Origin: Pseudoips prasinana
Lineage: Eukaryota > Arthropoda > Insecta > Lepidoptera > Nolidae
Assembly: GCA_951640165.1 (NCBI GenBank)
Contig: OX621249.1
Span: 25,401,201 to 25,465,200, forward strand
DNA: 64,000 bases
Reading direction: 5' to 3'
Shown here piece by piece: positions 1,585 to 41,636 of this stretch (the stretch's first letter is position 1; each line of letters opens with the position of its first letter). The notes under the pieces are model-generated. The model saw nothing but the letters and a program-made list of their open reading frames with translations. It made no database searches and was not told the origin of the DNA. Position numbers and translations under genes: made by a program.

Positions 1585-1657
1585 TTAAGCCTGTGATTGA
1601 CAAAGGTGATACTGAGGTCCATGTTACATTAGGAAGTGATGCTAAACTCTCTTGTAG
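1585..1657 (+). CDS. Exon 1 of visible gene: first half of Ig1
   Basis: The acceptor TTTCAG ends at 1584 and the donor GTAAGT starts at 1658. The 73 nt encode [12 protein letters not shown]... up to the B-strand Cys (KLSC). The exon begins inside a codon, so at least one coding exon lies upstream of the window. No plausible upstream coding exon is visible in 1-1584. Confidence 0.85.
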
Positions 1658-1956
1658 GTAAGTTTATAATAAAAACACGGGTGCCGGACCATTACGTGTG
1701 GAAAAGGCGGCGTTCACAACTGCTTACCGTACCGGTGGCTAGGGCCAATCTACTGGCAAAACCCTCACTCACCCGAGCAATTAGGTTAACTAATGAAGTA
1801 CACGAAAAAGTGGATATATTCTCATGTAATTTGAGTGAATTCGTAAGGACTGGTGACCTGTAATACAGGTATTTATAACCTAAATCAGGCACCAGTCTCT
1901 CACAAAGTCCTATGTTATACAAGAATGTATTAAACTATGTATGTTTATATAAGGAT

Positions 1957-1989
<33 letters not shown>

Positions 1990-7900: not shown

Positions 7901-10900
7901 TACCTATTACTTTAAATATTTGCACGACATATTCTGTCGAATATAGTGAAACGATAATATAATACCATCAAAATGTAACCTGTATTCTCGCAAATAAAGA
8001 GTTCATTCATTCATTCATTCATTCATTCATTCATACCTAATCATCAGCCTCATATCGTCCGCTGCTGGAGTTAGGCCTCCCCAAAGGCTTCCATTTCATA
8101 GTCACCGTGCTTGGCATGTGAGTTGGAGTCCGCAGTTAGGTGCTAGCTAGTACACAGGTGGCGCTGCTGCCCGACTACCTGGGCCCTGTTTAATAAAGCT
8201 GACAAGTCGACATATATGTCCAAAAATGACATATTTGTGGAATTGTCGTGCTGAGGACGTTTAATAAAAGTGACAAACATGTAAAAAGTCGACATAAAAT
8301 CTTTGACATTGTCATTTAAAAACGCGTTTAATAAAACTTGACATATGTCAAAAAACTACAGTCAAATTATTTCCGACAATTTTTTGTTGACAATTGTCGG
8401 AATTTCGTGAAAATTGTGTCAAATTGTGACATATTTGCTGATCATTCTGTTTTATGAAGACAAATGAGGATAAAACAAGAAAAAAATATCTACAAAGTCA
8501 TAGAATGAAGTAATCAAAAAAATAAATAATAATAATTGAATATTATTAAATTGATTCTGCTTTTAAATGACCGTCGTTGCCTCCTCGTTTGTATTTGTTC
8601 CAAGTATTCGTCATCACTACTCTCGCTGCTTGGTGTAGGTACCATTGTTTGTATAAAACTTTTTATAAACACTACACCTTCAATATTCAAAATATGAATC
8701 ACGACAGAAGGTAAGGCGCCTGTCAGATTTTTTGGACAATTCTACAAATATGTTAATATGTCATTGTCACCTGTCACTCAAAAAGTTTTATTAAACAGAA
8801 ATATGTCGGATTGTCGTGACATATTTCTAGATTTTCCACCATGACAGTTTTGTCACCTGTAAGTTTTATTAAACAGAAACAATGTCGAATTGTAACTTTT
8901 TGACATATGTCGGACTTGTCGAATTGTAACTTTTTGACATATGTCGGACTTGTCGAATTGTCAACTTTATTAAACAAGCCCTTGGAGTATCCCTCAGTCG
9001 CCCTTTACGACACTCACGGCATGGCATGGGGTGGCCCTGTTATTCTTTCGGGGCCGGAAACCGCACGGGTAGTTCTGTTTATTTAGGATTTATTTATTTA
9101 CATTTTTTCAGAGTAATCCAAGGGATACCCAAAGCTTCAATGCAATGGTTGTTCCGTCAGCATGGGGCAAATGCATACATTAGTATGCCGGATGCAACCG
9201 AAACAATTACCCTGAGGTCCATTAGCAGTACTAATATTGGAAATTACAAATGCATCGCAAAAAATATTGTAGGAGAATACAGTTATATCACAGATGTAAT
9301 ATTGGATTGTAAGTATATATTTAAAAATAAATATCAATATCATAGATCAATTAACACACTGGCATCTGGTACCAAACTAATAAATATATTAAATATCGCC
9401 TTTTACTGAACGTGATTTAACTAAACACCATTTACCCGTTTTCATTTCATACAACTCTTGTCCATCCTAAGGTCGCAGCTAGCGATAAGACCGCCCTTTG
9501 TACATTATTACAGTCACCGTAACCTAGTTGGTAGTGCTCCTGCCTATGAACCTGGTGGTCCTGGGTTCAAATCCCGGTAAAAGCAAATATTTGTGTGATG
9601 CTCAAATATTTGTTTCTGAATCATGGATGTTTTCTATGTATATAAGTATTTATCTATCTATATAAGTATGTATATCGTCACCTGGTACCCATAAAACAAG
9701 CGTTGCTTAGTTTGGGGCTAGGATGATCTGTGTGACAGTGACAAAAAAAAACTTATAATAAAAAAAAAATTATAATTATGCAACTATGTTTTTTCTATTT
9801 TTGTAATTTTTGGTGTACAATTCTATATCGTAAACTTATAGAAAACAACATCCGGGACAGTGTTTAGGGACTGCCTATAGAAGTGAAATATGTATTTTTT
9901 CATTGCTCATACTCGGAAAGTAGTCTTTATTTGATCCAACTAGCGAGTGAAAGATGCTACTCCCCACCTTTAGGCGGCAAATACTCATAGTTATTGCATC
10001 CCTCCGTATGGTAGGAATAAATTTAAAAAATAGATCAAAATTTGGTAAGGCGTAGTCGATGTAAAAAATGTAACATATTAAAGAAAAATTGCTTCGGCAA
10101 TGTGTATAAACGGCCAGCATGAATATAGAAAAGACCCACCGTCGTACGAATATGCGATCAGGTCACGTGACCTGACGCGAGTTTAACATTTTTTACATAC
10201 ATACATACATAGACTCACGCCTGTTTCCCAGAGGGGTAGGCAGAGACGACGGATTTCCATTTGTCACGATCTTTGCATACTTCTTTTGCCTCGATTACTG
10301 TCATTATATTCTTCATACATGCTCGCCGGTTTAGGGTACTTCTGACCTGCCCTTTCTTGAGAACATCTCCAATTTGGTCAGAGAATGTTCGACGTGGTCT
10401 TCCCCTTCCGGTTGTCCCATTCACACAGGCCAGGTATACTTCTTTTGTCAATCTTCTTTCATTCATCCTTTCTAAATGGCCAAACCATCTCAGCATGCCT
10501 TTTTCAATCTTTGTGACTACATCCTCTTTCACACCACAACGCTCTCTTACATCAGTATTTTGAATTCTGTCTCTCAAAGTCACACCACACATACTTCTCA
10601 GAGCTCTCATTTCCACTGCATTTATTTTACTTTCATTCTTTTTCTGCCATACCCAACTTTCACTTCCATACATTAAAGTTGGCACTAACACTCCATCGTG
10701 CACGGCTAGTCGAGCCTTCTTTGATACTTGCCGGCTACTCATAAAGGCGTGTAGTGCCCCATTCACTCTGTTCCCCGCATTTACTCTTCTAACAATATCT
10801 TTTTCATATTTCCCATCTCTCGTAAACAAAGTTCCCAAATATACAAACTCATTCACCTGTTCGACTTTCTCTCCTCCAATCACAACATCACACGCTGTCG

Positions 10901-31900: not shown

Positions 31901-34900
31901 ATTAAAAAAAAGCATCTCCGTCTTACGAATATTCGTTCAGGTCCTGACGCGAGTTTAACTTTTAACCCATCCTAAAAAAATGCCGGTAAAGAAGTTTTCA
32001 CTTCTATAATAATCTAAGGTTTAATTTGTTCGGTTCTTTTCAATGACAACTGTTGATAAATTTTATATTAAGCCTTAATTTTTGAGACAGTAGGGTCATA
32101 TTACTGTATCAAAAATTTGGAATAAATCTAAGAAATACTAATTGTATGATATTGGCAGGTAACTTGGACGCACAACGGCAAGCCTATGAGCTGCGCTGAC
32201 ATGAGTACTTGTCCCATTCCCAACATGAGATATGATGACAGGGGATCCTACGAATGTGAAGTAACTAACCAATTTGGAACTATACATCGCTCGTTCACTA
32301 TTAAGTCTAGAGGTAAGATAACAAACGATAGAATCAATCGAAATGGTGACAGTCGTTTTGATGTTTTTACTACTAGAAATAAACATGCTACCAGTATTTG
32401 TTTCTCGTTGTTTTTTCTATATCGTATGGGCAGTGGTTACCCTAGTGGCAGATTTGTTCAAGCCGCCCAGTACGGTTCTGATATGACTTATCGACTGTTC
32501 TCATAAATGGGAAATCATAAATTTGATCGTCCGGCGGGTCTCGAACCTGCACCATCTACCAATCCGGGGTAGGCGCTCTGCGTTAAGCTACGAACGATAC
32601 ACGCTGGCAGATCAAATTTAGAATTCCCTTTCTAACACCCTTCCGGAGGATGTAGGTATTATCTATCGGTTTTGTTTTCTAGAAACATGGCCGACTGATA
32701 TGTTCACAGTTGCATGTGAAAGATCACATCATATTGATAATACCTTCCAAATTATTAAATATGGTAGATGGTGCAGGTTCGAGACCCGCCGGACGCTCAA
32801 ATTTATGATTTCCCATTTTTGAGATTAGATAAACGCTTTGCATTGCGAATAATGCTATAAAATTTAAATTTATCGACTGTTGTCTTATCACAACTACCGG
32901 GACCGACAGCTTAAGGAGTCCTCCGGAACACGGAGTTGCTCAGAAATTAAACCACTTTAACGGTCACCCATCTATGGACTGACCGCATACCTAGGTGCTT
33001 TACCTCGCTGACCGCTTACGGACCGTTGAGTACCACTGGTCATTCTTTCTCGTAAAATTACCCTAGTGACCTGCTTTAACTATATCAAAGTTATCCGCGG
33101 CCGACAGTTTAGCGAGTCATTTTCTAACGAAAGGCAAGTGGCATAGACCTACCGACTGTAAAGCGATCAGGGGCTCTACCGACTAAGTCGCCGAACATCG
33201 TTTTCGTGAATGGCGTTCAGATAAATAAAGGTTAAAAATTACTTGATCAATCGTTAAATCGGCGTCAACGTTGACAATCGATTCCGGACCATTTATGACG
33301 TCACATGTGCTCATGGAAGCCGATTTAACGATTAATTAAGTCATTTTTAAGCTAATAAATAATATTGGAAGGCCGTAGACGATGTTCGGCGACTTAGCCG
33401 GTAGAGCCCCAGATTCACTAAGTTCTGGGTTGAAATTCCGGGTCGGATCAAGAACTGTAATTGAGATTTTCTCCCGCGAAGTACACCTAATAACCGACCA
33501 GAGCATGGAAGTTGGGTGTGCTATAAGACTGTGCCTCGAGCGATCAGATTCACTAAGTTCTGGGTTCAAATCCCGGGTCGGATCAAGAACTGTAATTGAG
33601 ATTTTCTCGCCCGAAATACACCTAATAACCGACCAGAGTATGGAACTAGAGTGTGCTATAAGACTGTGCCTCGAGCGATCACATTCACTAAGTTCTGGGT
33701 TCAAATCCCGAGTCGGAATTGAGATTTTCTCGCGCGAATACACCTAATAACCGACCAGAGTATGAAAGTTGGGTGTGCTATAAGACTGTGCCTCGAGCGA
33801 TCAGATTCACTAAGTTCTGGGTTCAAATCCCGGGTCGGATCAAGAACTGTAATTGAGATTTTCTCGCGCGAAATACACCTAATAACCGACCAGAGTATGG
33901 AAGTTGGGTGTGCTATAAGACTGTGCCTCGAGCGATCAGATTCACGAGGTTCTGGGTTCAAATCCCGGGTCGGATCAAGAACTGTAATTGAGATTTTCTC
34001 GCGCGAAATACACCTAATAACCGACCAGAGTATGGTAGTTGGGTGTGCTATAAGACTATGCCTCGAGCGATCAGATTCACTAGGTTCTGGGTTCAAATCC
34101 CGGGTCGGATCAAGAACTGTAATTGAGATTTTCTCGCGCGAAATACACCTAATAACCGACCAGAGTATGGTAGTTGGGTATGCTATAAGACTGTGCCTCG
34201 AGCGACCAGATTCACGAGGTTCTGGGTTCAAATCCCGGTCGGATCAAGAACTGTAATTGAGATTTTCTCGCGCGAAATACACCTAATAACCGACCAGAGT
34301 ATGGTAGTTGGGTGTGCTATAAGACTGTGCCTCGAGCGATCAGATTCACGAGGTTCTGGGTTCAAATCCCGGGTCGGATCAAGAACTGTAATTGAGATTT
34401 TCTCGCGCGAAATACACCTAATAACCGACCAGAGTATGGTAGTTGGGTGTGCTATAAGACTGTGCCTCGAGCGATCAGATTCACTAGGTTCTGGGTTCAA
34501 ATCCCGGGTCGGATCAAGAACTGTAATTGAGATTTTCTCGCGCGAAATACACCTAATAACCGACCAGAGTATGGTAGTTGGGTGTGCTATAAGACTGTGC
34601 CTCGAGCGATCAGATTCACTAGGTTCTGGGTTCAAATCCCGGGTCGGATCAAGAACTGTAATTGAGATTTTCTCGCGCGAAATACACCTAATAACCGACC
34701 AGAGTATGGTAGTTGGGTGTGCTATAAGACTGTGCCTCGAGCGATCAGATTCACGAGGTTCTGGGTTCAAATCCCGGTCGGATCAAGAACTGTAATTGAG
34801 ATTTTCTCGCGCGAAATACACCTAATAACCGACCAGAGTATGGAAGTTGGGTGTGCTATAAGACTGTGCCTCGAGCGACCAGATTCACGAGGTTCTAGGT

Positions 34901-37900
34901 TCAAATCCCGGTCGGATCAAGAACTGTAATTGAGATTTTCTCGCGCGAAATACACCTAATAACCGACCAGAGTATGGTAGTTGGGTGTGCTATAAGACTG
35001 TGCCTCGAGCGATCAGATTCACGAGGTTCTGGGTTCAAATCCCGGGTCGGATCAAGAACTGTAATTGAGATTTTCTCGCGCGAAATACACCTAATAACCG
35101 ACCAGAGTATGGTAGTTGGGTGTGCTATAAGACTGTGCCTCGAGCGATCAGATTCACTAGGTTCTGGGTTCAAATCCCGGGTCCGATCAAGAACTGTAAT
35201 TGAGATTTTCTCGCGCGAAATACACCTAATAACCGACCAGAGTATGGTAGTTGGGTGTGCTATAAGACTGTGCCTCGAGCGATCAGATTCACTAGGTTCT
35301 GGGTTCAAATCCCGGGTCGGATCAAGAACTGTAATTGAGATTTTCTCGCGCGAAATACACCTAATAACCGACCAGAGTATGGTAGTTGGGTGTGCTATAA
35401 GACTGTGCCTCGAGCGATCAGATTCACGAGGTTCTGGGTTCAAATCCCGGTCGGATCAAGAACTGTAATTGAGATTTTCTCGCGCGAAATACACCTAATA
35501 ACCGACCAGAGTATGGAAGTTGGGTGTGCTATAAGACTGTGCCTCGAGCGATCAGATTCACGAGGTTCTGGGTTCAAATCCCGGGTCGGATCAAGAACTG
35601 TAATTGAGATTTTCTCACGCGAAATACACCTAATAACCGACCAGAGTATGGAAGTTGGGTATGCTATAAGACTGTGCCTCTAGCGATCAGATTCACTTGG
35701 TTCTCGGTTCAAATCCCGGGTCGGATCAAGAACTGTAATTGAGATTTTGTCGCGCGAAATACACTTAATAGCCGTCCAGATTATAGAAGTTGGATGTCCT
35801 ATAAGACTGTGCCTCGAAAAGCACGTAAAACTGTTATTCCTGCGCATGATCTTGTGCAGTCATGTCAGATAGCCACCGCATCGGATTATGTGGGAATAGA
35901 GAGTGCCCCCACGTTTGCGCGCACAATTCATCATCCTGCGTATTCGTCTAGTCTCCGATGAAACTTTCCGCCAGGAGAAGTTTATTATTCTTTGATATTG
36001 GTAAGATCAAATAAGAGTATGACATTTTTTTTATAGATTGCCTACTTAACGTAAACAAGGACTTCACAGAACATCAACCCTTGATGTTATCGCATTCGGG
36101 TTCTTGGCCTGAATATAAAGTATCTGATGGCTACATGACCATACCCCACGATGACTTCTTCTACCTGTATTGCCCGACAAAATTTGCAAGATATTTTCCT
36201 ACACATACAGTATTGACGGCATTTTGTGAAGAAGAAACCATGATAAAAATCAATGGAAATCTATATAACTTTTCCGACATGAAATGCACGAAAATTATAG
36301 AGCCAATAGTTACCAGTACAAGGATTCCTTGCTTGCCTGGCAACACTGAGCTCATCAAAGTTGGATACAAAGGACTGAGTAAAAGTTTAAATGTATACGA
36401 TGTGTGTTTGGATAAAAGTAATAACGTTCCATTATACGCACAAAATACAATGCCCTCGCAATTCGTTGGCAGTCCCAGAAATATAAAGACATGGTTGAAA
36501 AATAGTCTGTTGCCCCTAGATTTTGATTCGATGTATGACTGCAGGAGACAGACTTATGATATTTCGTTGACACTGGGCCGAGACTTTCACTCGTCTGATG
36601 GATGCTGTATCGGTAAAAGACCGCTGGTTAATAATCAAGATTTACATCCTGGTGTTCCTGCTACTGTATCCAATAGCTACCTCAACGTTGTACCACAGTG
36701 GAGTACATGTAACTCGAGGGTAAGTTAACCTTTCTACTGCCTATGAACTAAAATGTTTAGATGGATAATGTGCTGCTTGACATAATTATCAATTGGCAGT
36801 TTTCATAGATGTGGCAGGGATGCAGTGACATTTATCTTTAGCCATATTACTTACTTTTACTCCTTAGCAAATAAATGTGTTGTAATCTTAAGCTAATTCT
36901 AATAAGCGTACTGTGCCTATAGCATGTTCCATATGGATTTAAGTGTAATGATAGTAAGTTAATTATTCTCAATAACTACAACCCAACTCCACCTATAGCA
37001 CGTTCCATTCGGATTTAACCCGCCACTTGTGACGTGAATTTGACTTACAACTTTGGTGACGCCGGTTCTACGCACCGGGTTTTTAAGATATTCTTAATAA
37101 GCAATAAATACTCCATGCTACTTTTACTCAGCTAATATGAAAAGATATGTCTTTTTAGATATATCAATAAAACGAAGATATATATTAACATAGAAATACG
37201 TTTATTAATTCTTACTGTATTACACTTATAACACTGAAAATTATCGATTTTTTTTTCTAGACTTACGTTAAAATATAGAATTTGAAACAAAAAATAAAAT
37301 TTAATAGCTAAATCAGCCTTTTGTGGTCTTATGACAATAGGAACTATAAAAATGAAACAAAAAACGAACTCCTTCCAATAAAAATGTCCCCTCAAAAATA
37401 ACTGGTAAAAATGGTTATCCCAGGTACTCATCAATCTTCAAAATTTCAGCAAGTCTTTGTCTCATCAATCGAGGCAAGTTTGACTGAACCTGTCGTTCTC
37501 GTCGTATAACAGTTTTTCTAGTAGAAGAGCTTCGAAACTATGAGTTTCACGTTCGTAAGACATGCTAAAATTAAGTTGTAAATTAGAAAATAAATTCCTA
37601 AAATATTACTATTTTAGTGAAAACTTGATGAAATTATGTAAAAAGTTTACTGACTACAGAATAATAATAATTAAAATAATTAAGCTCTCAAAATAAATAC
37701 ATAAACTGGTCAAAAAGTTGCAATTAAAAAAATAAGCTATGACTTTTTGACTTACGTAGTCTGTAACCCCGGTCTCACGCACCGGGTTGGGGCCAAAGCT
37801 CCAAGAAGTACCTCCGCGTCGCCGGCGCGGGGTGGACTAACGGTGGGGGATGCGCAATAAGGAAAGTAAACGAAATCACTACTCGATTCTATGGCGGATA

Positions 37901-40900
37901 AAAAAGTTATTCAACTTTTTTGAACTACCCGGTCTTACAGACATACACGTCACAAATGGCGGGTTAAGATGTTGGGGAAATAATCTCGCCGTATAGTTTC
38001 TGGCTAAGAAATAAGTACAGGACCACCCCACATCGTCCCAGAGATGTTGTAAGAGACGACTAAGGGATACATCAGGTAGTCGGGCAGCAGCGTCTCCCGT
38101 GTATTAGCCACCTGTGTAATGTTGTGGAATGCTTATCTGTAGCAGTGATAATGATTGCGAAATAGCTGCTTAAGCTAATCAACATTAAATGTATTTCCCT
38201 ATTAGATACTGAATGTATATGGTTTTCTTTTAACCTCTTTAATTATTATTTTTTTGTTTTTGCCCTATTGGGCAGGCTAAGGTCTGTGACCATACCGCCT
38301 CGTCTTCAGTTGTATTATTTCTAATTTTATATTTTAAAGTCAGTCAGTCATGTCCGTCACGTCCGTCACAGTCATGTCCGACACGTCCGTCACAGTCAAG
38401 TCATAGTCCCACCTCAGTAAAGCAGTGGAGACTTTACTAGAGGCTTCTATGGAGTTTTGGTTTCAACACGGAAAATCATAATTCACGGCAATATCGCACT
38501 TTTCTCCACTTGTGTACGTTGTCGAAGATGTTATGTCTAAAAATCCACCATATTTACACATAAAAACTCGAATTTACACCAGTTTTTGAAAATAAAACTT
38601 AGCCTCGATGCGTCCTTTTCCGCGTTGGCGCCAAAACTCCTTAACCTCTTTAATCTGGCTGAGTCGTTAAACACCTTGAAGATGTCTCCTACTTGTCAAA
38701 GTTCCGTTATAGGTCAAGTGCTTAATGTAGTTTGTGTTAATTAGTGAGTAAATAGATGACTTTCCCAATGAATAAGTTATTTGGCTAACGGGCCTGTTGG
38801 CGTGGTTAGCAAATGCTTGCTTTTCACGCCGGAGGTCATGGGTTCGAGTCCTACCCAGGACAGATATAATAATATAATAATAATATCTGGGGACAATGTC
38901 ACACAGATCATCCTAGCCCCAAACTAAGCAAAGCTTGTACTATGGGTACCAGGCGACGATATACATACTTATATAGATAGATAAATACTTATATACATAG
39001 AAAATATCCATGACTCAGAAACAAATATTCGTGCTCATCACGCAAATATTTGCACTTACCGGGATTCGAACCCAGGACCACCAGCTTCGTAGGCAGTAAC
39101 ACTACCAACTAGGCTATGGTGATCGTCATATTTGTGTGCATTATCTAAATATGCATGTATTTGCAAAAGAAAATTAGTTTATGTAGTATATCAGCTATCT
39201 GGTTACAAGCTCTGCTTAGTTTGGGATGATAAGTGTGTAAATAATGTCCCAGAATATTATTTTTATTATACTACTAGCTGTCCCGGCAAACTTCGTCCTG
39301 CCACACAAATAGAAATATAATCTGTCACTTAGCAGGTTTATTGTATTTCTACAACACAATTATTCAGGGTCCCGTTCGTGCTGAAACGCTTAAAAGGTCA
39401 CCGTAGCCTAGTTGGTAGTGCTCCTGCCTACGAAGCTGGTGGTCCTGGGTTCGAATCCCGGTAAGTGCAAATATTTGTGTGATGAGCACGAATATTTGTT
39501 TATGAGTCATGGATGTTTTCTATGTATTTAAGTATTTATCTATCTATATAAGTATGTATATCGTCGCCTGGTACCCATAGTACAAGCTGTGCTTAGTTTG
39601 GGGCTAGGATGATCTGTGTGACATTGTCCCCAGATATTATTATTATTATTTTAAAAAAAATAGGTCCTGTTGATTAGAAGGATGACTGCACTCCACAGTG
39701 TCCTGTATCAGAAATGGTGTTTTATACGGATTTATTTATTTTGTAATTTTCGTAATTGCCCACTTCGCAAACGTTCTTCTTCAGTGGATTGATTTGTGAT
39801 TTTACTGTGATTTAGAAATAGATAACATAATAATTGTTAGTATAGCAAATTAAATGTTTTGATTTATATAAAATTGGTGAAATGCTAGGAGAAATACAAC
39901 CGTCATTGCCAATTTTATATAATTCAAAACATTTCATTTGCTATACTAACAATTATTAGGTATGTAATATCGAATCCATTTATTTATGAACTAATTGTCG
40001 AACGTCTAACATAAGCTTAATTTAGTACTTGCAAAATAATATTTATTAAAAACACTAAAACAAATAAATTAATCAGTAACCTATTAAAAAAAACAAACCA
40101 AAAACAATTTCACGATTTATAGCCTTTATACTGACAGAAAGCGATAATGGATTATTCTAAAAACTCTAGTTCATTCTGTATTGTCCATCTAGGCAGTTTT
40201 TATTTCATTTCGATGAAATTACTTTCTATGTATTTGAATTTTGTTTTAAATAATTATGTTACTATATTTTATCCTATTACTGGCGAAAATATATCCAAAA
40301 ACATTAAAATCATTTAAATTGCTCCACCCGTTCTTGAGTTATAAGTGGTGTAACTAACACGACTTTCTTTTATATATATAGATTAATGATATATTGTAAA
40401 AAAGTCGAGTTCGTTACACCATTTATAATTCAATAACGTGTGACTGGAGTCCTCGTAAACGGCCGATTTCTTTTGTATATATTAATGATGACATTTTTTT
40501 AAACATAGAATTGGGAAGAAGTTGAGAGCAGAGTAAGGAAGCTAGCAAAATCAGCCGGAAGTGAGGTGAAAGTGATCACGGGGACCGCGCGGCATCTGCG
40601 CATGCGCCGTGGACTATCTTATACGACTATAGACCTTCACGATGCAAGAAGACAGAGACAACCTGTAGGAGAATATTTATGGAAGGTATGTTAGCAAAAT
40701 TTCTTTAGCATAATAGTTTGTGAGTGTGTGACTGTGAGAGTGTTTGTTACTCCTTCACGGCTAAACCGCTGGAGCGATTTTAATAAAATTTGGTATAGAG
40801 TTAGCTGACACCCTGGATTAACACATAGGCTACAATTTATAAATTTTAACGCGGGTAAAACCGCGGGGCATAGCTAATAATTAATAAATTGAGTTTTTAA

Positions 40901-41636
40901 ATTTCACCACGTCGATAGTACGGAGTTAGTGCGAATAACAGAAAAACACTAAGCTTTGTATAATAATTTAGTGTTTATAAATGAACAAGTGCAAACTATA
41001 AATCATCGTCATATCAGCCAAAGGCGTCGACCGCTGAACAAAAGCCTAATACAGATATCCTACTAATATTATAAAGTCGAAACTTCGTGAGTGTGTGAGT
41101 GTATATGTTTGTTACTTCTTCACGTCGAAAGGGCTGGAGTGATTTTAATAAAATTTGGTGTGGAGTTAGCTGACACTCTGGATTAACACATAGGCTATAT
41201 TTTATAAAGTTTAATGCGGGTAAAACCGCGTAGTACAGCTAGTAGGATATCAAATCAACACGGTGTGCAGACACTTAGCTTGACTCTCCATGTATGTAAA
41301 TCATGGAATGCTATGAATAGAAATTAAAATAATTTTATTAATTTCCAGGTCGTCCAATATCCGGCTGCCGACGCCTCACTTGCCATAATTCAGCTAAACA
41401 TACCAGACATGTCACCGTCTGAATTGAAAAGACATATACTGTGCCACGATATATGTCAAAACATACAATGGATAAAAGACTATGACTGGAAAAATATTGC
41501 CAATGGCTATACGTATTGTTGTAACATTAAAGAATTTGAGAGCGCTTTTGGCTATGGCAGAAAGTTTAGCCCCGGACTGGAGTACGTTCTTTTCGACACG
41601 TCCTTAATAACACATAGTACTACAAACAGACCTTAA
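1585..41636 (+). CDS. Ig-domain array fused to a DNA/RNA non-specific endonuclease-like domain (14 exons, 5' partial)
   Basis: Seen: 14 exons with AG/GT borders join in a single frame of 913 codons plus TAA; exon coordinates are given in the separate exon entries. Residues 1-531 form six Ig domains, each with the B-strand Cys, core Trp and the F-strand YxC (NYKC, NYKC, NYTC, TYTC, LYTC, SYEC). Residues 532-913 match the insect alkaline nuclease/dsRNase type of the Endonuclease_NS family: an N-terminal Cys-rich part, then NVVPQW, NWEEVE, TGT and the C-terminal EYLWKVVQY block. Family knowledge: such nucleases are secreted or gut/hemolymph enzymes that cut DNA and dsRNA; I-set Ig arrays bind proteins or surfaces. 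Odd: the catalytic DRGH is GKRP, so activity is doubtful. No transmembrane segment is seen in the visible part, and the chain ends shortly after the nuclease fold, which fits a secreted protein; the signal peptide would lie upstream of the window. Alternative: two separate genes, but no start or signal-peptide exon for a lone nuclease is visible between 32313 and 36036, and the junction phase fits. Confidence 0.88.
1984..2226 (-). repeat. SINE-A copy, reverse orientation
   Basis: It is the reverse complement of the SINE-A consensus. The tRNA-like head ends near 2226 and the tail near 1984 abuts a (TA)n run at 1960-1983. It is about 240 bp. Confidence 0.85.
2400..2650 (-). repeat. Repeat R copy
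   Basis: The block around GTAGTCGGGCAGTAGCGCC and the CCCCATACCATCCCG block match 8035-8180 plus 8982-9075 (opposite strand, split by a MITE) and 37968-38130. It is a dispersed repeat of unknown class. Confidence 0.5.
2768..3000 (-). mobile_element. RTE-type retrotransposon 3' fragment
   Basis: The - strand encodes [27 protein letters not shown] and [18 protein letters not shown], then a stop. This resembles the C-terminus of the RTE-like polyproteins at 20044-20533 and 42818-43090. A further short piece of the same type (+) with a (GAT)n tail lies at 3040-3145. Confidence 0.6.
3345..3636 (-). repeat. Repeat X copy, cut by the CR1-like element
   Basis: It matches the repeat X family and ends abruptly at the TTGTCTGAATTGGTCT block, where the CR1-like element starts. 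Confidence 0.6.
3718..4854 (+). CDS. ORF1 of the CR1-like element (SGNH-like domain)
   Basis: 378 residues. The N-terminal 150 residues are polar and low complexity, with a possible coiled segment at the start. Residues about 160-320 contain [25 protein letters not shown] and [10 protein letters not shown], in the order of SGNH/esterase-like ORF1 proteins of CR1 elements (GDSxxRG ... GxNDxx). The block-I Ser is not present (GGAQ instead of GDSx), so esterase activity is unlikely. The C-terminal 60 residues are basic and polar. Known role in the family: RNA binding or particle formation. No frame breaks. Confidence 0.75.
   Translation: MENIILENIDLKKTIHSMNQELCVLKQLCKSPLSSYSHNMSSSAKKSIRRRLTNSFQTTPFKPNEPTTNTSLELRRQTITQMEQQLMMNETNKIQKLPCTSTENTENKTDTTPLFNNTEDPKTCTENCSVSGNTKNTTSTEMKNESFNMPNPSYKLKCQKRAFIVGGAQCRGLATQLIKSRYYNPYNYYNFLSIVKPNASTAEILSSIKLLDINSEDKLIISVGQNDYNTLKMTTELCLFLQSVKCPVIILCVNKNICSNKISLNRMIKLICTQNKDCCFVEDYYNRTSLCYKINLFIDQIDYNKRFLSFKNCHNENLKVLGSKSRQNNLSVKHQSSQTDMSLFDSKTENKLPVLNNATKKDKINNSVQQHFFRGQEL
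4838..7717 (+). CDS. ORF2 of the CR1-like element: endonuclease + reverse transcriptase
   Basis: About 959 codons. An N-terminal apurinic-type endonuclease has [21 protein letters not shown] and LSDHN. The RT core has [29 protein letters not shown] (motif A), [20 protein letters not shown] (B) and LFADDT (C). The frame is intact to TAA. The frame opens at 4811 and has no ATG before the endonuclease motifs; position 4838 is GTG and the first in-frame Met is about residue 40. Translation may depend on reinitiation or frameshifting near the T-run at 4830-4836, or the ATG may be lost. Function: target-primed reverse transcription. Confidence 0.88.
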   Translation: MARNYNITILHQNIAGVISKLDEIELALNLLCDNKYFIDIMCLTETFIKSGEEENMLIKLFKLGSSFSRKYQKRGGVCILIKQDVECENIQWLNSIAVENHFEICGIQLKKYKINLLCVYRTPNSDIDIFFRKLQVQLDKLIRKDKYKIIICGDFNINFLGSSKIKDEFLNIIYNYNLNYHINKATRQNTCIDNILSDIKDAKGEIHELGLSDHNTGQTLIIKAKHDCNVNRQWFAYKRDMCNENIEKFRYYLRNMSFSEVFSKTDVNHAFSSLHDEICLFYNLCFPIIKIKMNKNSAKPKWITNGLKKSFISKRKLQSRYYKNKTSQNKKKYNDYRKILKQCMTDTQRDKNKIYIQKSENKCRATWKIVNDKLKQNDVNNEINELIHCQTSLTKGEDIATFFNEYFINIAKPTENLNYTKNHENVRRPTHSIFLEPVDCLEVFKTTMQLRNTNSAGYDNITTKILKQNILPILKPLTHIINLSLENGVFPDGLKFSVVKPIFKKGSKSEAGNYRPITLVPVISKIFEKIMCTRLMSFFDKNNVINSQQNGFIKNKSTSLACFKLVKEILDALDNKQIPLAVFLDLSKAFDMVCNDRLLSKFEQYGIRGPAYDWFQSYLIGRQQCTEIKKNCKKTQIEETFRSPYLINHYSVPQGSVLGPILFIVYINELPNSTDQFTILFADDTTILTKEQTIENAVSVTNKALMDIISWLEANNLKINISKTKFMRYLTYNNKNIGNIGDISLNYNNIDIDEVHNIKFLGIVTDRFCNWKAQVDNVCKKINKFIFALRKIKNITNRETALMVYHSHVCSILRYGVILWGNSTDAERAFIVQKKCLRSIFNLKWTDSCQPIFIREKILTLPSIYIYEMCKFVRNHILLFEKDEKAEMKRKIVRKPLVGPRSRLKIGDKNCYNMGVKVFNKLPEKLRHLPDNEFFRTLFKWLCDRCFYSIDDYIKYKFT
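8035..8180 (+). repeat. Repeat R, left part (continues at 8982-9075)
   Basis: It reads to GCTGCCCGACTACCTG and resumes after the MITE with GGAGTATCCCTCAGTCGCC, which matches the uninterrupted copies in reverse at 2400-2650 and 37968-38130. Confidence 0.55.
8181..8981. mobile_element. Harbinger-like non-autonomous DNA transposon (MITE)
   Basis: Terminal inverted repeats start GGGCCCTGTTTAATAAAG (left) and GGGCTTGTTTAATAAAG (right, read inward) and continue with TGACAA and TCGAC. The candidate 3-bp target duplication is CTG/TTG. It has subterminal copies of GACATATGTCGGACTTGTCG, including a 34-bp tandem duplication near 8884-8951. A - strand frame at 8514-8702 with an acidic SSESSDDE stretch may be the remnant of a transposase N-terminus. 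It splits a repeat R copy. Class assignment rests on the ends and TSD length only. Confidence 0.7.
9112..9308 (+). CDS. Exon 2: second half of Ig1
   Basis: The acceptor TTTTTTCAG ends at 9111 and the donor GTAAGT starts at 9309. The 197 nt carry the core Trp (MQWLF) and the F-strand motif GNYKCIAKN, completing Ig1. It ends in phase 1 and is followed by a phase-matched exon. Confidence 0.88.
9512..9760 (+). repeat. SINE-A copy
   Basis: It has a full tRNA-like head (B-box GGTTCAAATCC), the shared body and the GATGATCTGTGTGACA end, then an A/T-rich tail. Confidence 0.85.
9835..10190. repeat. Repeat U copy
   Basis: The blocks CTCATACTCGGAAAGT and GACGCGAGTTTAACATTTTT also occur at 19328-19700 and 31730-32010; a shorter relative is at 12715-12790. 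It is a dispersed element of about 360 bp without coding signs. Confidence 0.55.
10215..12443 (-). CDS. Reverse transcriptase ORF of the RTE-type element
   Basis: 742 codons. RT motifs: [31 protein letters not shown] (A), [18 protein letters not shown] (B) and [11 protein letters not shown] (C). Then a thumb region ([22 protein letters not shown]) and the common C-terminus [13 protein letters not shown] ... [17 protein letters not shown]. The open start is artificial: the first Met lies just after a pentanucleotide run that breaks the frame from the endonuclease part. The RT core itself is uninterrupted, suggesting a young copy. Confidence 0.88.
12461..12492. repeat. (TATTC)n microsatellite inside the RTE coding region
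   Basis: Six TATTC units. On the - strand they read as (GAATA)n with TAG stops, lying between the endonuclease-end codons (SVLERIKVE) and the SLFARDM start of the RT frame. Confidence 0.85.
12842..13086 (-). repeat. SINE-A copy, reverse orientation
   Basis: Reverse complement of the family consensus, with the head ending at 13086 and a (AAT)n tail at 12841-12856. It ends about 100 bp before exon 3. Confidence 0.85.
13190..13361 (+). CDS. Exon 3: first half of Ig2
   Basis: The acceptor TTTTCAG ends at 13189 and the donor is GTAAAA at 13362. It encodes [19 protein letters not shown], the B-strand VTVRC and VTWYKGG, then stops within the D/E strand region. It is 172 nt and leaves two nt of a codon. 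Confidence 0.88.
13408..14003. mobile_element. Foldback MITE with a SINE-A inserted in its left arm
   Basis: The left arm AATACAAAATCAATACG...TGTTAATT (13409-13446) plus GCTAATTGTCAGTTTAATC (from 13708) pairs with the right arm at about 13905-14003. SINE-A (13448-13704, - strand) splits the left arm. The inner arms also match (CCGGGATGCAATTTGCACC). Total arm length is about 100 bp. Confidence 0.7.
13448..13704 (-). repeat. SINE-A copy, reverse, nested
   Basis: Full-length family match, from the (TAA)n tail at left to the tRNA-like head ending GGCTACGGTGACCG at about 13704. Confidence 0.85.
14100..14240 (+). repeat. Repeat W fragment with (CAT)n
   Basis: It has TCATCATCATCATCATG followed by AAAGTACGTCCACTGCTGG. 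Related pieces lie at 15620-15790 (-), 22690-23000 (+), 23277-23450 (-) and 27270-27470 (+). These look like 3' ends of RTE-type elements. Confidence 0.5.
14502..14596 (+). CDS. Exon 4: second half of Ig2
   Basis: The acceptor TTCTAG ends at 14501 and the donor GTAAGT starts at 14597. The 95-nt exon encodes [20 protein letters not shown], the F/G strands of Ig2, and ends in phase 1. Confidence 0.87.
14640..15110 (+). mobile_element. Helitron-like end and an adjoining non-LTR fragment
   Basis: 14640-14798 ends in a GCGGGTAACACCGC hairpin followed by GGGGCACAG and CTAG, the arrangement of a Helitron 3' end. 14840-15010 (+) encodes a decayed RT thumb piece (MWNIAATF..., [13 protein letters not shown] in another frame) resembling Jockey/CR1 C-termini. 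Confidence 0.5.
15159..15464 (-). mobile_element. Non-autonomous Helitron-like element H1
   Basis: On the - strand it begins TCTATACATATAATAAAATC and ends with a short GC hairpin, GGGGCACAA and CTAG, about 306 bp. It is the same family as 17304-17624, 26725-27267, 27516-27818, 44510-44826, 45917-46216 and 46785-47260. Confidence 0.7.
15863..15864 (+). other. Intron 4 3' splice junction
   Basis: The junction ..TTCACAG|TACC sits directly after repeat W and a short T-rich tract. It marks where Ig3 coding begins. Confidence 0.8.
15863..16016 (+). CDS. Exon 5: first half of Ig3
   Basis: The acceptor TTCACAG ends at 15862 and the donor GTAAGT starts at 16017. It encodes [19 protein letters not shown], the Cys in ALPCKAEG and LKWTF. 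It is 154 nt and joins exon 6 in a split AAG codon. Confidence 0.88.
16320..16650. repeat. SINE-B-like and tRNA-like repeat remnants
   Basis: The blocks GCCGATGGGACGACTAG, GACCGACGGCTTTACGTG and TTCCGCCACGGTGGCCAG recur at 21376-21540. Decayed dispersed repeat; no coding support. Confidence 0.4.
16787..16949. repeat. Inverted-repeat element with 40-bp arms
   Basis: The left arm 16787-16826 (AGTGCGTGAGTGCG..., CTAACGTTGCTTGTAAG) pairs with 16910-16949, with one or two mismatches and a central ACGTGCGTTCATGCAGATG-type inner palindrome. It is a foldback MITE. Confidence 0.75.
16950..17303. other. AT-rich intronic stretch
   Basis: I see no coding signal, hairpin or clear repeat here beyond (ATT)n just before the Helitron-like copy. 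Confidence 0.5.
17304..17624 (-). mobile_element. Non-autonomous Helitron-like element H2
   Basis: CTAG at 17304-17307 is followed by the hairpin block on the reverse strand; the TC end is at 17624 (TCTATACATAGG...). About 320 bp, same family as H1. Confidence 0.7.
17809..17930 (+). CDS. Exon 6: second half of Ig3
   Basis: The acceptor TTTTTAG ends at 17808 and the donor GTGAGT starts at 17931. It encodes [20 protein letters not shown] and a closing G strand. It is 122 nt. Confidence 0.88.
18078..18218. mobile_element. MITE-M copy 1
   Basis: It starts GCAGACGCCAGCACATTCAG and ends with the inverse GACGTGTTGGCGTCTGTAC. The inner inverted block CAATCTGTCAAATTTC is also shared. The same element is at 25566-25708. 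Confidence 0.75.
18565..18690 (+). mobile_element. Non-LTR 3'-end fragment (repeat V)
   Basis: The block GCATCTTATGGGTACGCGCG ... ACCATCAGGTGAGATC is shared with 53810-53915, where it continues a C-terminal RT frame. It is a short truncated insertion. Confidence 0.55.
18693..19327 (-). repeat. Repeat G copy 1, with internal palindrome
   Basis: It is bounded by CCGGCCAAGTGCAAGTCGG and CTACGGAACCCTAAAAA. It contains a (CAGA)n run and the GGGTTCCGTTTTTTGCCATT end. The second copy is at 58650-59238 on the other strand. The inner 18756-18876 palindrome is absent from that copy. Confidence 0.7.
18756..18876. repeat. 121-bp palindrome with 58-bp arms
   Basis: The left arm starts TAGTTGATTAAATGAAAGC and the right arm ends with its exact reverse complement; the spacer is 5 nt (GCAAT). 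By eye the arms are perfectly complementary. It is an inverted duplication of a piece of repeat G. Confidence 0.9.
19328..19700. repeat. Repeat U copy
   Basis: The shared blocks TTTCTCATACTCGGAAAGT and ACGCGAGTTTAACATTTTTT are present. It lies just upstream of exon 7. Confidence 0.55.
19745..19888 (+). CDS. Exon 7: first half of Ig4
   Basis: The acceptor TCCACAG ends at 19744 and the donor GTAAAT starts at 19889. It encodes [20 protein letters not shown], then LRIQCKATG and ITWQKDN. It is 144 nt. Confidence 0.88.
19930..20660. mobile_element. MITE interrupted by an RTE 3' end
   Basis: The outer parts 19930-20043 and 20534-20660 form the two inverted ends of one element (CGCCGGTCATAGTGATCGGCG left; ATGACCGGCG right) related to the MITE-N ends. 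The interrupting RTE piece is flanked by AGCCCGGAATCT on both sides. Confidence 0.7.
20044..20533 (-). mobile_element. RTE-type retrotransposon 3' fragment with 12-bp TSD
   Basis: The - strand frame (20062-20481) encodes [45 protein letters not shown] and [20 protein letters not shown], ending QQWTSFG. The 3' tail is TATGATGATAATATGATGA. The target duplication AGCCCGGAATCT is at 20032-20043 and 20534-20545. Only the C-terminus is present. Confidence 0.85.
20741..21375. repeat. Helitron-like end and triplicated 69-bp block
   Basis: CTAGCTGTGACCGCGACTTC at 20743 resembles a Helitron-like terminus. The block TATGTAGTAAAAACCGGC...TTATTTATTTGTAT recurs three times (about 20990, 21221 and 21305), in part with the preceding ACAGACAGACAGAC run. 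Confidence 0.55.
21622..21759 (+). CDS. Exon 8: second half of Ig4
   Basis: The acceptor CTATCAG ends at 21621 and the donor GTAAGG starts at 21760. It encodes [20 protein letters not shown], the F-strand Cys region of Ig4. It is 138 nt and ends in phase 1. Confidence 0.88.
21955..22313 (+). mobile_element. CR1-like 3'-end fragment
   Basis: It encodes [34 protein letters not shown] and a stop, the usual C-terminus of these RT proteins, followed by a 3' UTR with AATAAAGTACC. The flanks 21916-21948 and 22316-22347 are inverted copies of a GTCACCCTGGTG block. Confidence 0.65.
22690..23000 (+). repeat. Repeat W copy
   Basis: It has AACGTCCACTGCTGGATAAA and CATCCCGTGGGGTGCGTAG; the second half is mirrored by 23277-23450 (-), flanking SINE-C. 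Confidence 0.5.
23022..23260 (+). repeat. SINE-C copy (tRNA-like)
   Basis: It contains GTAGCTTAACTCTGC...CGCTTACC and the B-box-like GGTTCGAGACCC, then TGATTTCCCATTTTTGAG and an A/T tail. Other copies form an inverted pair at 32500-32869. Confidence 0.7.
23510..24074. repeat. Two repeat X copies head to head
   Basis: 23510-23790 reads + (GGATCCGGTGGTAACATTAA...) and 23795-24074 reads - (AAGCGCTTGTAAATAGTCAG...). The latter is cut at a TTAA by the piggyBac element. Confidence 0.6.
24075..25517 (-). mobile_element. piggyBac-like DNA transposon, decayed
   Basis: TTAA lies at 24071-24074 and 25518-25521, flanking ends CCCATTAATGGCC and (inward from the right) CCCATTTACAGCC. The TTAA target site and CCC...GGG ends are diagnostic of piggyBac. 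The subterminal GTACTC/GAGTAC repeats are inverted at both sides. It carries transposase remnants on the - strand. Confidence 0.88.
24195..24900 (-). pseudogene. piggyBac transposase remnant
   Basis: The - strand reads [15 protein letters not shown], then after a frame change [20 protein letters not shown], then the open part (24200-24565) [32 protein letters not shown], matching the DDE_Tnp_1_7 order (DEsM ... fGyk ... DNfFtS). At least one frameshift and further losses are present and the usual C-terminal zinc finger is not seen. Not functional. Confidence 0.8.
25566..25708. mobile_element. MITE-M copy 2
   Basis: It begins TGTACAGACGCCAGCACATC and ends GATGTGCTGGCGTATGTACC; inner blocks match copy 1 at 18078-18218. 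Confidence 0.75.
25850..26713. repeat. AT-rich region with a 232-bp direct duplication and a Helitron-like end
   Basis: The block TATGTATTTTATTTTTTATA...CAACTCGTGCGTATAAAATA occurs from about 26055 and again from about 26287. 26465-26713 ends GTACCGGGCCGCTAG, a Helitron-like terminus, after a TCTATATATA start. Confidence 0.6.
26725..27267 (-). mobile_element. Helitron-like element H3 with a 230-bp insert
   Basis: CTAG is at 26725-26728 and the TC end at 27267. Compared with H1/H2 it has extra sequence at about 26941-27167 that includes the GC-rich inverted block ACGATGTGCGCGC...GCGCGCATCGT. Confidence 0.65.
27270..27480 (+). repeat. Repeat W copy
   Basis: It has ATCATCATTATGTCAGCC, AAAGTACGTCCACTGCTGG and CATGAGATGGGGTGACG, as in the other W copies. 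Confidence 0.5.
27516..27818 (+). mobile_element. Non-autonomous Helitron-like element H4
   Basis: It starts TCTATTCATATAATAAAATC after an A and ends AACCGCGGGGCACAGCTAG before a T. TC...CTAG ends without target duplication and an A/T insertion site are the Helitron pattern. 303 bp. Confidence 0.75.
27835..27995 (+). repeat. SINE-E copy (tRNA-like)
   Basis: The head GTGGCGCAACGGTTAAGAC and the B-box GGTTCGATTCC are followed by CAACTGTTTGAGTAAACC. A reverse copy is at 47763-47935. It directly abuts a SINE-A. Confidence 0.65.
28005..28250 (+). repeat. SINE-A copy
   Basis: Full family match from TAGCCTAGTTGGTAG to the (ATT)n tail. Confidence 0.85.
28260..28980. repeat. Non-LTR 3' UTR-like and AT-rich sequence
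   Basis: It contains a 12-nt T run at about 28621-28632 and CACTAGGGAAATAAATCCCTG (also seen in reverse near 47770-47795). No frame of note. Confidence 0.35.
28980..29257 (+). repeat. Repeat Z copy
   Basis: The blocks AAGTCCGTCACAGTCAAGTC, AGACTTTACTAGAGGCT and CGTTGGCGCCAAAACTCC recur at 38340-38645 and in part at 43200-43400. Confidence 0.6.
29258..29396. repeat. 139-bp palindrome formed from repeat X
   Basis: AGCAGTGTGTACCACATTAA at left is mirrored at 29377-29396. The arms of about 67 bp differ at one or so positions around a 5-6 nt loop (ATTTAC). The inner part is the repeat X end ATTCACGTAGACTTTAAA. Confidence 0.85.
29400..29715 (-). repeat. Repeat X copy
   Basis: It runs from TTTTTATTCACG through TTGTCTGAATGGTTCTGTC to GTCGCGCTTTA, ending 35 bp before exon 9. 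Confidence 0.6.
29751..29863 (+). CDS. Exon 9: first half of Ig5
   Basis: The acceptor ATTTTCAG ends at 29750 and the donor is GTACAT at 29864. It encodes [25 protein letters not shown] and LRWYK and ends in phase 0. The preceding intron (about 8 kb) is the longest in the gene and is filled with transposons. Confidence 0.87.
29946..30195 (+). repeat. SINE-A copy
   Basis: Full match with one B-box change (GGTTCGAATCG). It lies in the intron that splits Ig5. Confidence 0.85.
30270..30440 (+). repeat. SINE-B-like fragment with a 60-bp internal duplication
   Basis: The block GGCTTTAGAAATTTGTTTCAA...GACCGATAGCTCAACG occurs twice in tandem (30308-30366, 30367-30425). Confidence 0.65.
30601..30646. 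repeat. Perfect short palindrome
   Basis: ACGTTTTGAACGCCACAGTC is mirrored to the right across a 2-4 nt centre. It has arms of about 21 bp. Confidence 0.8.
30757..31298. mobile_element. DNA transposon remnant with CTTATTTAAAA ends
   Basis: The left CTTATTTAAAAT...CCGCCGCTTAACCATG is mirrored by the right CATGGTTAGGCGGCGGG...TTTTTAAATAAGG. Its ends resemble those of Harbinger-type elements. No transposase frame. Confidence 0.55.
31304..31375 (-). repeat. SINE-D head fragment
   Basis: CTGTCCTGGGTGGGAGTCGA, ACCCACGACCTGCGGC and CTACGCCAAACAG match the SINE-D head (reverse) at 42650-42753. Confidence 0.6.
31445..31675 (+). CDS. Exon 10: end of Ig5 and start of Ig6
   Basis: The acceptor TTTATAG ends at 31444 and the donor GTAACT starts at 31676. 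The 77 codons run in phase 0 at both ends. The exon closes Ig5 ([11 protein letters not shown]) and opens Ig6 ([20 protein letters not shown] then [11 protein letters not shown]). Unlike the other domain borders there is no intron between Ig5 and Ig6. Confidence 0.9.
31730..32010 (-). repeat. Repeat U copy, decayed
   Basis: It shares TGGTAGGAATACATTTAAAAAATAG- and CTGACGCGAGTTTAAC-type blocks with 9835-10190. Confidence 0.45.
32159..32312 (+). CDS. Exon 11: second half of Ig6
   Basis: The acceptor TTGGCAG ends at 32158 and the donor GTAAGA starts at 32313. It encodes [10 protein letters not shown], an extra Cys pair (SCADMSTCP) and [15 protein letters not shown]. It ends in phase 1, matching the nuclease exon downstream. 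Confidence 0.88.
32424..33045. repeat. SINE-B interrupted by an inverted SINE-C pair
   Basis: SINE-B left part 32424-32499, right part 32870-33045. The insert 32500-32869 is two SINE-C copies in opposite orientation. TTATCGACTGTT flanks it at 32488-32499 and 32870-32881. Confidence 0.7.
33171..33409. mobile_element. MITE-N copy 1 (CAG target duplication)
   Basis: The ends GGGCTCTACCGACTAAGTCG and (right) CGACTTAGCCGGTAGAGCCC are inverted. CAG flanks it at 33168-33170 and 33410-33412. 239 bp, inserted in the first unit of the satellite array. Copy 2 is at 47962-48202. Confidence 0.8.
33410..35817. repeat. 135-bp tandem repeat array, about 18 units
   Basis: The landmark GCCTCGAG recurs at 33533, 33668, 33790, 33925, 34060, 34195, 34329, 34464, 34599, 34734, 34868, 35002, 35137, 35272, 35407 and 35541, then in altered form at 35676 and 35811. 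Units are 134-135 bp, except one of 122. Because 135 is a multiple of three, both strands give long artificial frames. Each unit holds GGGTTCAAATCCCGGGTCGG, a B-box-like motif, so the unit may descend from a tRNA-like element. It sits in the intron before the nuclease exon. Confidence 0.95.
35818..36036. other. Unassigned sequence between array and exon 12
   Basis: It contains GCACGTAAAACTGTTATTCC and ATCGGATTATGTGGGAATAG, which look like the non-repeated end of the dispersed element that seeded the array. No start codon plus signal peptide is visible. Confidence 0.4.
36037..36719 (+). CDS. Exon 12: main part of the nuclease-like domain
   Basis: The acceptor TTTATAG ends at 36036 and the donor GTAAGT starts at 36720. 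The 683-nt exon encodes residues 533-759. It starts with [10 protein letters not shown] and HQPLML and has many Cys as in insect alkaline nucleases ([31 protein letters not shown]). It ends [16 protein letters not shown]...[18 protein letters not shown] is the NxxPQ block of the Endonuclease_NS family. Twenty-one residues before its Asn, where the family has the catalytic His of DRGH, there is Pro727. N757 sits nine residues after N748, as the Mg-binding Asn does in the Serratia enzyme. Confidence 0.9.
36720..37014. other. Intron sequence without recognised features
   Basis: I see AT-rich intron sequence; two similar CCTATAGCA(C/T)GTTCCAT blocks (36915 and 36992) suggest decayed repeats. Confidence 0.4.
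37019..37963. mobile_element. TTAA-flanked piggyBac-type element, non-autonomous
   Basis: TTAA at 37015-37018 and 37964-37967 flanks CCCGCCACTTGTGACGTG (left) and CACGTCACAAATGGCGGG (right), which are inverted with one mismatch. A second inner inverted block is CACCGGGTT (37075, 37780). 945 bp. Only short frames (such as 37132-37434, -) without transposase motifs. Confidence 0.8.
38130..38340. other. Unassigned intron sequence
   Basis: AT-rich, no recognised repeats or coding signals. Confidence 0.4.
38340..38645 (+). repeat. Repeat Z copy
   Basis: It matches 28980-29257 from GTCCGTCACAGTCAAGTC to TTGGCGCCAAAACTCC. Confidence 0.6.
38790..39270 (+). repeat. SINE-D split by a nested SINE-A
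   Basis: SINE-D head 38790-38867 (GGGCCTGTTGGCGTGGTTAG ... GGTTCGAGTCC); body resumes at 39126-39270 (ATTTGTGTGCATTATC, AGCTCTGCTTAGTTTGGGAT). SINE-A (-) occupies 38868-39125. Confidence 0.75.
38868..39125 (-). repeat. SINE-A copy, nested in SINE-D
   Basis: Reverse-oriented full copy, tail (TAA)n at left, head ending GGCTATGGTGATCG. Confidence 0.85.
39396..39652 (+). repeat. SINE-A copy
   Basis: Full-length family match with (ATT)n tail. Confidence 0.85.
39830..39958. repeat. Inverted repeat, 48-bp arms
   Basis: ATAATTGTTAGTATAGCAAA at left is mirrored by TTTGCTATACTAACAATTAT at right, around a loop of about 30 nt. A few arm mismatches. Confidence 0.8.
39960..40508. other. Intron sequence before exon 13
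   Basis: AT-rich. 40320-40384 resembles a Helitron-like terminus (TTCTTGAGTTATAAGTGGTG ... TATAGA); the matching CTAGCTGTCCCGGCAAAC end is near 39285. No coding signal. Confidence 0.4.
40509..40685 (+). CDS. Exon 13: nuclease-like domain, NWEEVE block
   Basis: The acceptor ACATAG ends at 40508 and the donor GTATGT starts at 40686. The 59 codons begin [14 protein letters not shown], carry [14 protein letters not shown] and end GEYLWK. NWExVE, V.TGT and a closing ylWK are conserved in alkaline nucleases/dsRNases; Glu765 corresponds to the structural/metal-site Glu127 of the Serratia enzyme. Confidence 0.9.
40712..40877 (+). mobile_element. Short Helitron-like element
   Basis: It ends GCGGGTAAAACCGCGGGGCA then TAGCTAA. 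The interior CACATAGGCTACAATTTATA is shared with the next copy. Confidence 0.55.
41058..41242 (+). mobile_element. Short Helitron-like element, TC...CTAG
   Basis: It starts TCCTACTAATATTATAAAG and ends GTAAAACCGCGTAGTACAGC TAG, 185 bp, about 100 bp before the last exon. Confidence 0.7.
41349..41636 (+). CDS. Exon 14: nuclease-like domain C-terminus and stop codon
   Basis: The acceptor TTTCCAG ends at 41348. The frame runs [53 protein letters not shown] to [14 protein letters not shown] and TAA at 41634-41636. The kVV(QY) continuation of lWK and the Cys pairing pattern are as in insect alkaline nucleases. Confidence 0.9.
   Translation, partial: VVQYPAADASLAIIQLNIPDMSPSELKRHILCHDICQNIQWIKDYDWKNIANGYTYCCNIKEFESAFGYGRKFSPGLEYVLFDTSLITHSTTNRP

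Follow-up and report, generated by a model that had tools for sequence, protein, structure and literature searches.

Structure of the gene at the locus

We analyzed a 64,000-nucleotide stretch of the 1.126 Gb genome of Pseudoips prasinana (GCA_951640165.1, contig OX621249.1, positions 25,401,201 to 25,465,200 of the forward strand; C15:25401201-25465200), hereafter called the window. Of a single gene it carries the 3' part, amounting to 60% of the coding region, and we consider it likely that this gene encodes a secreted adhesion or recognition protein of the hemicentin type whose C-terminal domain is a pseudonuclease descended from an insect secreted double-stranded RNA nuclease (dsRNase) or alkaline nuclease. 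An earlier note on this DNA had joined 14 exons of the window in one frame and read them as an array of six immunoglobulin (Ig) domains fused to a nuclease-like domain. When we rebuilt these exons from the sequence (1585-1657 ... 41349-41636, plus strand), their ends were the same as in that note, all internal exon borders carried AG/GT, the phases agreed at 13 of the 13 internal junctions, and the resulting frame of 912 codons contained a single stop, at its end. In a Pfam search the window product matched I-set (239 bits, six stretches) and Endonuclease_NS (PF01223; 57.8 bits, cut-off 23). The exons and the intron at the Ig-nuclease junction, all on the plus strand, are as follows, with the Ig numbers of the whole protein and those of the earlier note in brackets.

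1585..1657, +, exon 12 of 25: first half of Ig3 (Ig1), internal, entered in phase 1
9112..9308, +, exon 13: second half of Ig3 (Ig1)
13190..13361, +, exon 14: first half of Ig4 (Ig2)
14502..14596, +, exon 15: second half of Ig4 (Ig2)
15863..16016, +, exon 16: first half of Ig5 (Ig3)
17809..17930, +, exon 17: second half of Ig5 (Ig3)
19745..19888, +, exon 18: first half of Ig6 (Ig4)
21622..21759, +, exon 19: second half of Ig6 (Ig4)
29751..29863, +, exon 20: first half of Ig7 (Ig5)
31445..31675, +, exon 21: second half of Ig7 and first half of Ig8 (Ig5/Ig6)
32159..32312, +, exon 22: second half of Ig8 (Ig6), phase 1 at its end
32313..36036, +, intron at the junction, separating the Ig exons from the nuclease exons; scan for a signal-peptide-like first exon negative
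36037..36719, +, exon 23: start of the nuclease-like domain, comprising its N-terminal beta part and first half; GKRPL vs [RK]GHL of active-type relatives
40509..40685, +, exon 24: middle of the nuclease-like domain; PF01223 at 6.5e-05 on the frame 40509-40691 alone
41349..41636, +, exon 25: C-terminal end of the nuclease-like domain, with C.D.C...GYTYCC..F, followed by the stop codon

Entered in phase 1 and lacking a start codon, the exon at 1585 is an internal one, and the gene extends past the window edge. By searching the 60 kb upstream in the same genome with four relatives, we added 11 coding exons, nine of them through similarity to the relatives and two short ones by visual comparison with P0005, one of the related proteins described below. 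The start codon lies 21.6 kb 5' of the window, and the gene as a whole spans window coordinates -21582 to 41636, where 0 is the base preceding the window, with 25 coding exons and a product of 1519 amino acids. This product consists, in order, of a signal-like start (MWSYKLFLVFIFALISRFSVSG), a VWA domain (VWA_4, residues 29-193, 1.8e-54), a hemicentin galactose-binding-like domain (GBD_Hemicentin, residues 220-301, 1.6e-12), eight Ig domains (Ig_3 and I-set each match in eight stretches) and the nuclease-like domain (Endonuclease_NS, residues 1242-1486, 56.2 bits). The six-domain array of the earlier note therefore describes the window product but not the whole gene, in which its Ig1-Ig6 are Ig3-Ig8 and stand behind a VWA domain; a hemolin-like, Ig-only front half is not supported, the front being of hemicentin type. 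The VWA domain carries a DDTGS motif, which resembles a metal ion-dependent adhesion site (MIDAS).

Seven of the eight Ig domains start at a phase-1 intron, and the start of Ig8 falls within exon 21. Thirteen matched phases, taken together with homology that runs collinear with annotated proteins, do not arise by chance. Because the six most hydrophobic 19-residue windows of the whole product all lie at residues 4-9, as scored by hydrophobicity and not by a signal-peptide program, the product should be secreted.

A protein family of moths and butterflies

The search for proteins with both Ig and PF01223 domains in other Lepidoptera, which the earlier note had suggested, returned 19 distinct annotated proteins in two rounds at fused length (11, then eight new; isoforms and duplicates counted). 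A VWA domain (PF25106) is present in 18 of them and absent from P0011. They come from 16 species, belonging to Arctia, Mythimna, Chrysodeixis, Helicoverpa, Spodoptera, Chilo, Galleria, Hyposmocoma, Cydia, Papilio, Vanessa (two species), Bicyclus, Maniola jurtina, M. hyperantus and Pararge. Every match with a named organism is lepidopteran, in a search that reaches only relatives sharing short words and so leaves the taxonomic limit unproven. Nine of the proteins (P0005-P0008, P0010, P0013, P0014, P0017 and P0019) align to the 1519-residue product in one piece over nearly the full length of each of the nine, with identities of 47% to Arctia and Mythimna and 42% to Galleria; the other 10 are shorter, longer or poorer in Ig domains and align piecewise. 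Lengths fall between 1,240 and 1,585 amino acids in 15 of the 19. Cydia amplana P0016 (2,210 amino acids) and Spodoptera littoralis P0018 (1,968 amino acids) each contain parts of two copies, head to tail, which suggests that the fused gene is duplicated in tandem there and that annotation joined the two copies.

The nuclease-like domain is about as well conserved as the Ig domains. Against Arctia its identity is 49%, compared with 34-55% for the eight Ig domains and 60% for the VWA domain, and across seven relatives it ranges from 35 to 50%, compared with 27-63% for the Ig domains; 14 cysteines are invariant in seven alignment rows. A decaying remnant would not be expected to show such conservation, and the domain appears to have been retained. 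In a tree of 22 domain rows, from which the fragments P0001, P0003 and P0004 and the isoform P0012 (of P0013) were left out, the window sequence groups with four noctuids (95/92) and then with Arctia (100/99), and the nymphalids fall together (98/96); the deeper order is unsettled. The tree fits vertical descent. No stand-alone sister of the pseudonuclease was found with a 382-residue query among candidates of about 210-670 amino acids, a single-sequence search in which other insect dsRNases fall below the cut-off. Its four matches were three proteins encoded on contigs of 1.1-1.4 kb and a Choristoneura model considered below.

The database names of these proteins are mostly hemicentin or Hemolin; P0005, P0007 and P0018 bear the UniRef name 'Hemolin', and their build is unlike that of hemolin. 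The earlier note knew of no described protein with this architecture. As to sequences this does not hold, as the 19 models are already in databases under transferred names and the sequence is not new. As to descriptions it does: in a limited library of titles and abstract beginnings we found no paper describing a hemicentin-nuclease architecture, and none in that library contained both 'non-specific endonuclease' and 'hemicentin'. These proteins form a conserved, apparently unnamed class of moths and butterflies.

One fused gene or two

The junction 32312|36037 is correct: as the earlier note had stated, the phase is 1 both at the end of exon 22 and at the start of the first nuclease exon. A similar picture would arise from two adjacent genes, a hemicentin-like Ig gene ending after exon 22 and a separate secreted nuclease starting from 36037, if their phases matched by chance. 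The junction intron is indeed 3.7 kb long and holds an 18-copy tandem array of a 135-base unit, and a nuclease of the same genome, L001, does stand alone. The frame of the first nuclease exon is shut, however, by a stop codon just 5' of 36037. We also scanned the junction intron (32313-36036) for first exons, by criteria of our own that combined an ATG, a hydrophobic stretch and a good phase-1 donor, and obtained zero candidates, while the same scan recovered the true first exon 21.6 kb upstream as a positive control and gave 1, 0, 0 and 2 hits in four other stretches. Neither a start nor a signal peptide belonging to the nuclease exons was thus found in this intron. A protein from Choristoneura fumiferana, P0002, would favor separate genes by its annotation as a 400-residue 'salivary endonuclease-like' protein, but it opens with an apparent Ig-domain tail (GRYTCIVSNEFGS), uncalled by Pfam, and is probably a cut model of the same fused gene; the catalytic His discussed below is absent from it as well. 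Together with the occurrence of Ig domains and PF01223 in one protein in 19 models from 16 species, nine of them aligned in one piece, these observations make two adjacent genes extremely unlikely. We also considered a stand-alone dsRNase gene at this position and rejected it, as the first nuclease exon lacks a start of its own and the junction intron a signal-like first exon.

The tandem array (window 33410-35817; 18 copies, 95% matches) fills most of the junction intron, and its unit contains GGTTCAAATCCCGG, which may resemble the B box of a transfer RNA or short interspersed nuclear element (SINE). Elsewhere in the window, an intronic element of the long interspersed nuclear element (LINE) type lies at 3688-7714, in which a frame matching endonuclease (PF03372) and reverse transcriptase (PF00078) domains follows a 388-residue frame without a Pfam match. 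Two more reverse-transcriptase frames occur at 10215-12464 (minus strand), in an intron of the gene, and at 51260-52735 (plus strand), downstream of the gene.

Absence of the catalytic histidine

In the BLAST alignment of the fused domain with L001, SRGHL of L001 lies opposite GKRPL of the window sequence with no gap nearby, and the same RGHL of L001 pairs with DRGHL in CPS-6, a nuclease of solved structure. We compared this position in 24 sequences, that of the window and those of 23 proteins from the searches. None of the 24 has the catalytic His, which is replaced by Gln in 18, Lys in four, Pro in the window and Met in one; the other Cydia copy also has Met. In 22 of the 24, P0004 and P0009 being different, RGHL gives way to the motif CC..[KR]R.L. 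An Asn in the motif N..PQ....N...W corresponds to the one that binds metal in Serratia-type nucleases. This metal-site residue is Asn in nine of the 24, including the window, and Gly in 11, Ser in two, Glu in one and Asp in one. A genome-wide PF01223 search found 11 places in the same genome, the split exons of the fused gene not being among them, and all eight nuclease loci that we read keep GH[LM] after Arg or Lys, in a set found by profile and hence biased to intact motifs. With this His missing from all 24 sequences and kept in the eight same-genome loci, the nuclease-like domain is probably a pseudoenzyme: the absence of His is seen in the sequences, and the loss of activity would follow from it.

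A fused enzyme that still works, in which the VWA and Ig domains would aim an extracellular DNase or RNase at pathogens or nucleic-acid webs, might be expected from a fold that appears intact, and from the Asn of LN..P, the NW pair and the Glu of the active-site helix, which are largely kept in full-length sequences. We regard it as very unlikely, because the general-base His has become Gln, Lys, Pro or Met throughout, the preceding RG is also altered, and the metal-site Asn is Gly, Ser, Glu or Asp in 15 of 24. According to the structure titles, His-to-Ala forms of related nucleases (CPS-6 H148A/F122A, EXOG H140A and mouse EndoG H97A) were crystallised with nucleic acid, which fits a catalytic role of this His. 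The dsRNA handling proposed in the earlier note is, as far as cutting is concerned, unsupported.

Probable origin from an insect secreted nuclease

L001, which lies on the same contig at a distance of 0.7 Mb, stands alone and has a signal-like start. It aligns with the fused domain over 268 columns (24%, 79.7 bits), and the two have the C-terminal pattern C.D.C...GYT[FY]CC..F in common, which agrees with the kinship to insect alkaline nucleases and dsRNases claimed earlier. The pseudonuclease starts directly after the Ig8 exon, and L001 starts with KCILNTRMHF directly after its signal-like stretch. From these similar starts and the common C-terminal pattern, the captured piece was probably a whole mature secreted nuclease. 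It would have been taken up through a phase-1 intron at the signal-peptide cleavage point, before the split of the sampled moth and butterfly families, and would have lost catalysis after the fusion; we infer classical exon shuffling.

L001 is one open frame, whereas the fused domain has two introns inside. It is split at CNSR|NWEE, and the frames of two other nuclease loci, L004 and L008, appear by eye to continue to about LE[DT]; the split positions thus seem to differ, and a different lineage of nucleases may have given rise to the fused domain. Two further loci, L006 and L007, lie about 20 kb apart on contig C30 and have near-identical nuclease exons with KGHL; with the similar L008 nearby on the other strand, this is a local cluster of predicted nuclease genes or copies. 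In the PDB, a search with the single sequence gave unrelated matches only (an antibody light chain, 0.0065), and a profile search gave EXOG/EndoG as best at 0.014. Foldseek TM-scores were modest, 0.28-0.37 by query and at most 0.59 by target, among the matches listed.

Comparison with known proteins

The N-terminal VWA_4 domain with DDTGS, GBD_Hemicentin, the tandem I-set domains and the signal-like start are shared with hemicentins. In canonical hemicentins there are dozens of Ig domains, with G2F and EGF modules at the C-terminus, whereas the product of the window gene has eight Ig domains, far fewer than hemicentin-1, and a C-terminal pseudonuclease. Among 21 families found by Pfam in the whole product at E values up to 1, there was no G2F or EGF family, and the product ends with PF01223 followed by the stop. 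With L001 it shares a C.LN start after a signal-like or Ig boundary, besides the C-terminal pattern, but it differs in having KRPL for RGHL, in lacking a signal peptide on the nuclease-like domain itself and in being joined to VWA and Ig domains. Hemolin is a four-Ig, Ig-only protein; Ig domains and occurrence in Lepidoptera are shared, but the window gene encodes eight Ig domains with VWA, GBD and PF01223.

A possible parallel to a nuclease fold at the C-terminus of a larger protein is the NUC domain of ENPP1-3 and autotaxin, a top-tied structural match among the matches listed. In these proteins the NUC domain is inactive and structural. ENPPs differ in their phosphodiesterase domain and are not known to carry a VWA domain or an array of Ig domains.

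Proposed function

We return to the reading of the gene product as a hemicentin-type protein with a C-terminal pseudonuclease. The secreted recognition protein proposed in the earlier note is in line with the hydrophobic start at residues 4-9 and the in-frame fusion. The VWA and Ig domains would make adhesive contacts with matrix, hemocytes or foreign surfaces, and the pseudonuclease would form a stiff cap at the C-terminus or a module for holding or presenting a ligand. That it is a rigid ligand-holding module is our best guess, by analogy with the ENPP NUC domain.

A putative immune role is plausible. In Galleria hemolymph, proteins called hemicentin or hemicentin-like protein 1 rose 15- to 54-fold with Madurella (PMC7141616), and hemicentin rose 4-fold with Aspergillus (PMC6025711); hemicentin-like protein 2 is in a table of microbe-induced transcripts of Heliothis hemocytes (PMC4553588). 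Hemicentin is also treated as matrix, in connection with hemocyte shape change (PMC12691282). Other points weigh against the proposed reading. With Candida glabrata, hemicentin-like protein 1 went down (PMC7714416), so that directions differ between studies. A hemicentin-like transcript fell about two-fold in Spodoptera frugiperda hemocytes with polydnavirus (PMC1559612), and a 'hemicentin 1' transcript fell in Chilo hemocytes after parasitization (PMC3781088). Hemicentin-1 appears as a basal-lamina component of the Spodoptera midgut (PMC13116445). The hemicentins of all these papers are tied to the window gene by name and not by a sequence match. The gene itself is predicted from genome sequence, and its relatives are mostly computed gene models. 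The Ig count varies, with 8, 7, 8, 6 and 4 I-set stretches in five relatives scanned; another residue could in principle stand in for the His; and the net charge of the nuclease-like domain is not conserved, running from -14 to +17 over 21 fused rows.

The charge bears also on a different role, that of a receptor that does not cut, in which the dead nuclease would bind extracellular DNA or RNA and the VWA and Ig domains would link it to hemocytes or matrix in clotting or nodule formation. His-mutant nucleases still bind nucleic acid in crystals, as the structure titles indicate, the basic motif CC..[KR]R.L replaces RGHL in most sequences, and same-named proteins change in infected hemolymph in the reports above; so wide a range of net charge is nevertheless unlike a conserved nucleic-acid binder, and we consider such a receptor unlikely. 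Binding of nucleic acid through net charge was itself rejected as unsupported. A broader form, a Lepidoptera-wide immune protein whose retired nuclease is a putative non-cutting receptor for extracellular DNA or RNA, with VWA and Ig domains anchoring it to hemocytes or matrix and nucleic-acid webs being recognised and held rather than digested, seems to us rather improbable.

Implications

Databases file this class as hemicentin, as 'Hemolin' or, in one cut model, as a salivary endonuclease. Proteomic and RNA studies of caterpillar immunity that report 'hemicentin' may measure proteins of this class, and annotators of dsRNases for RNA interference work could take the fused protein for an active nuclease. 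The gene also looks like a case in which an enzyme domain was captured by exon shuffling, disabled and then retained.
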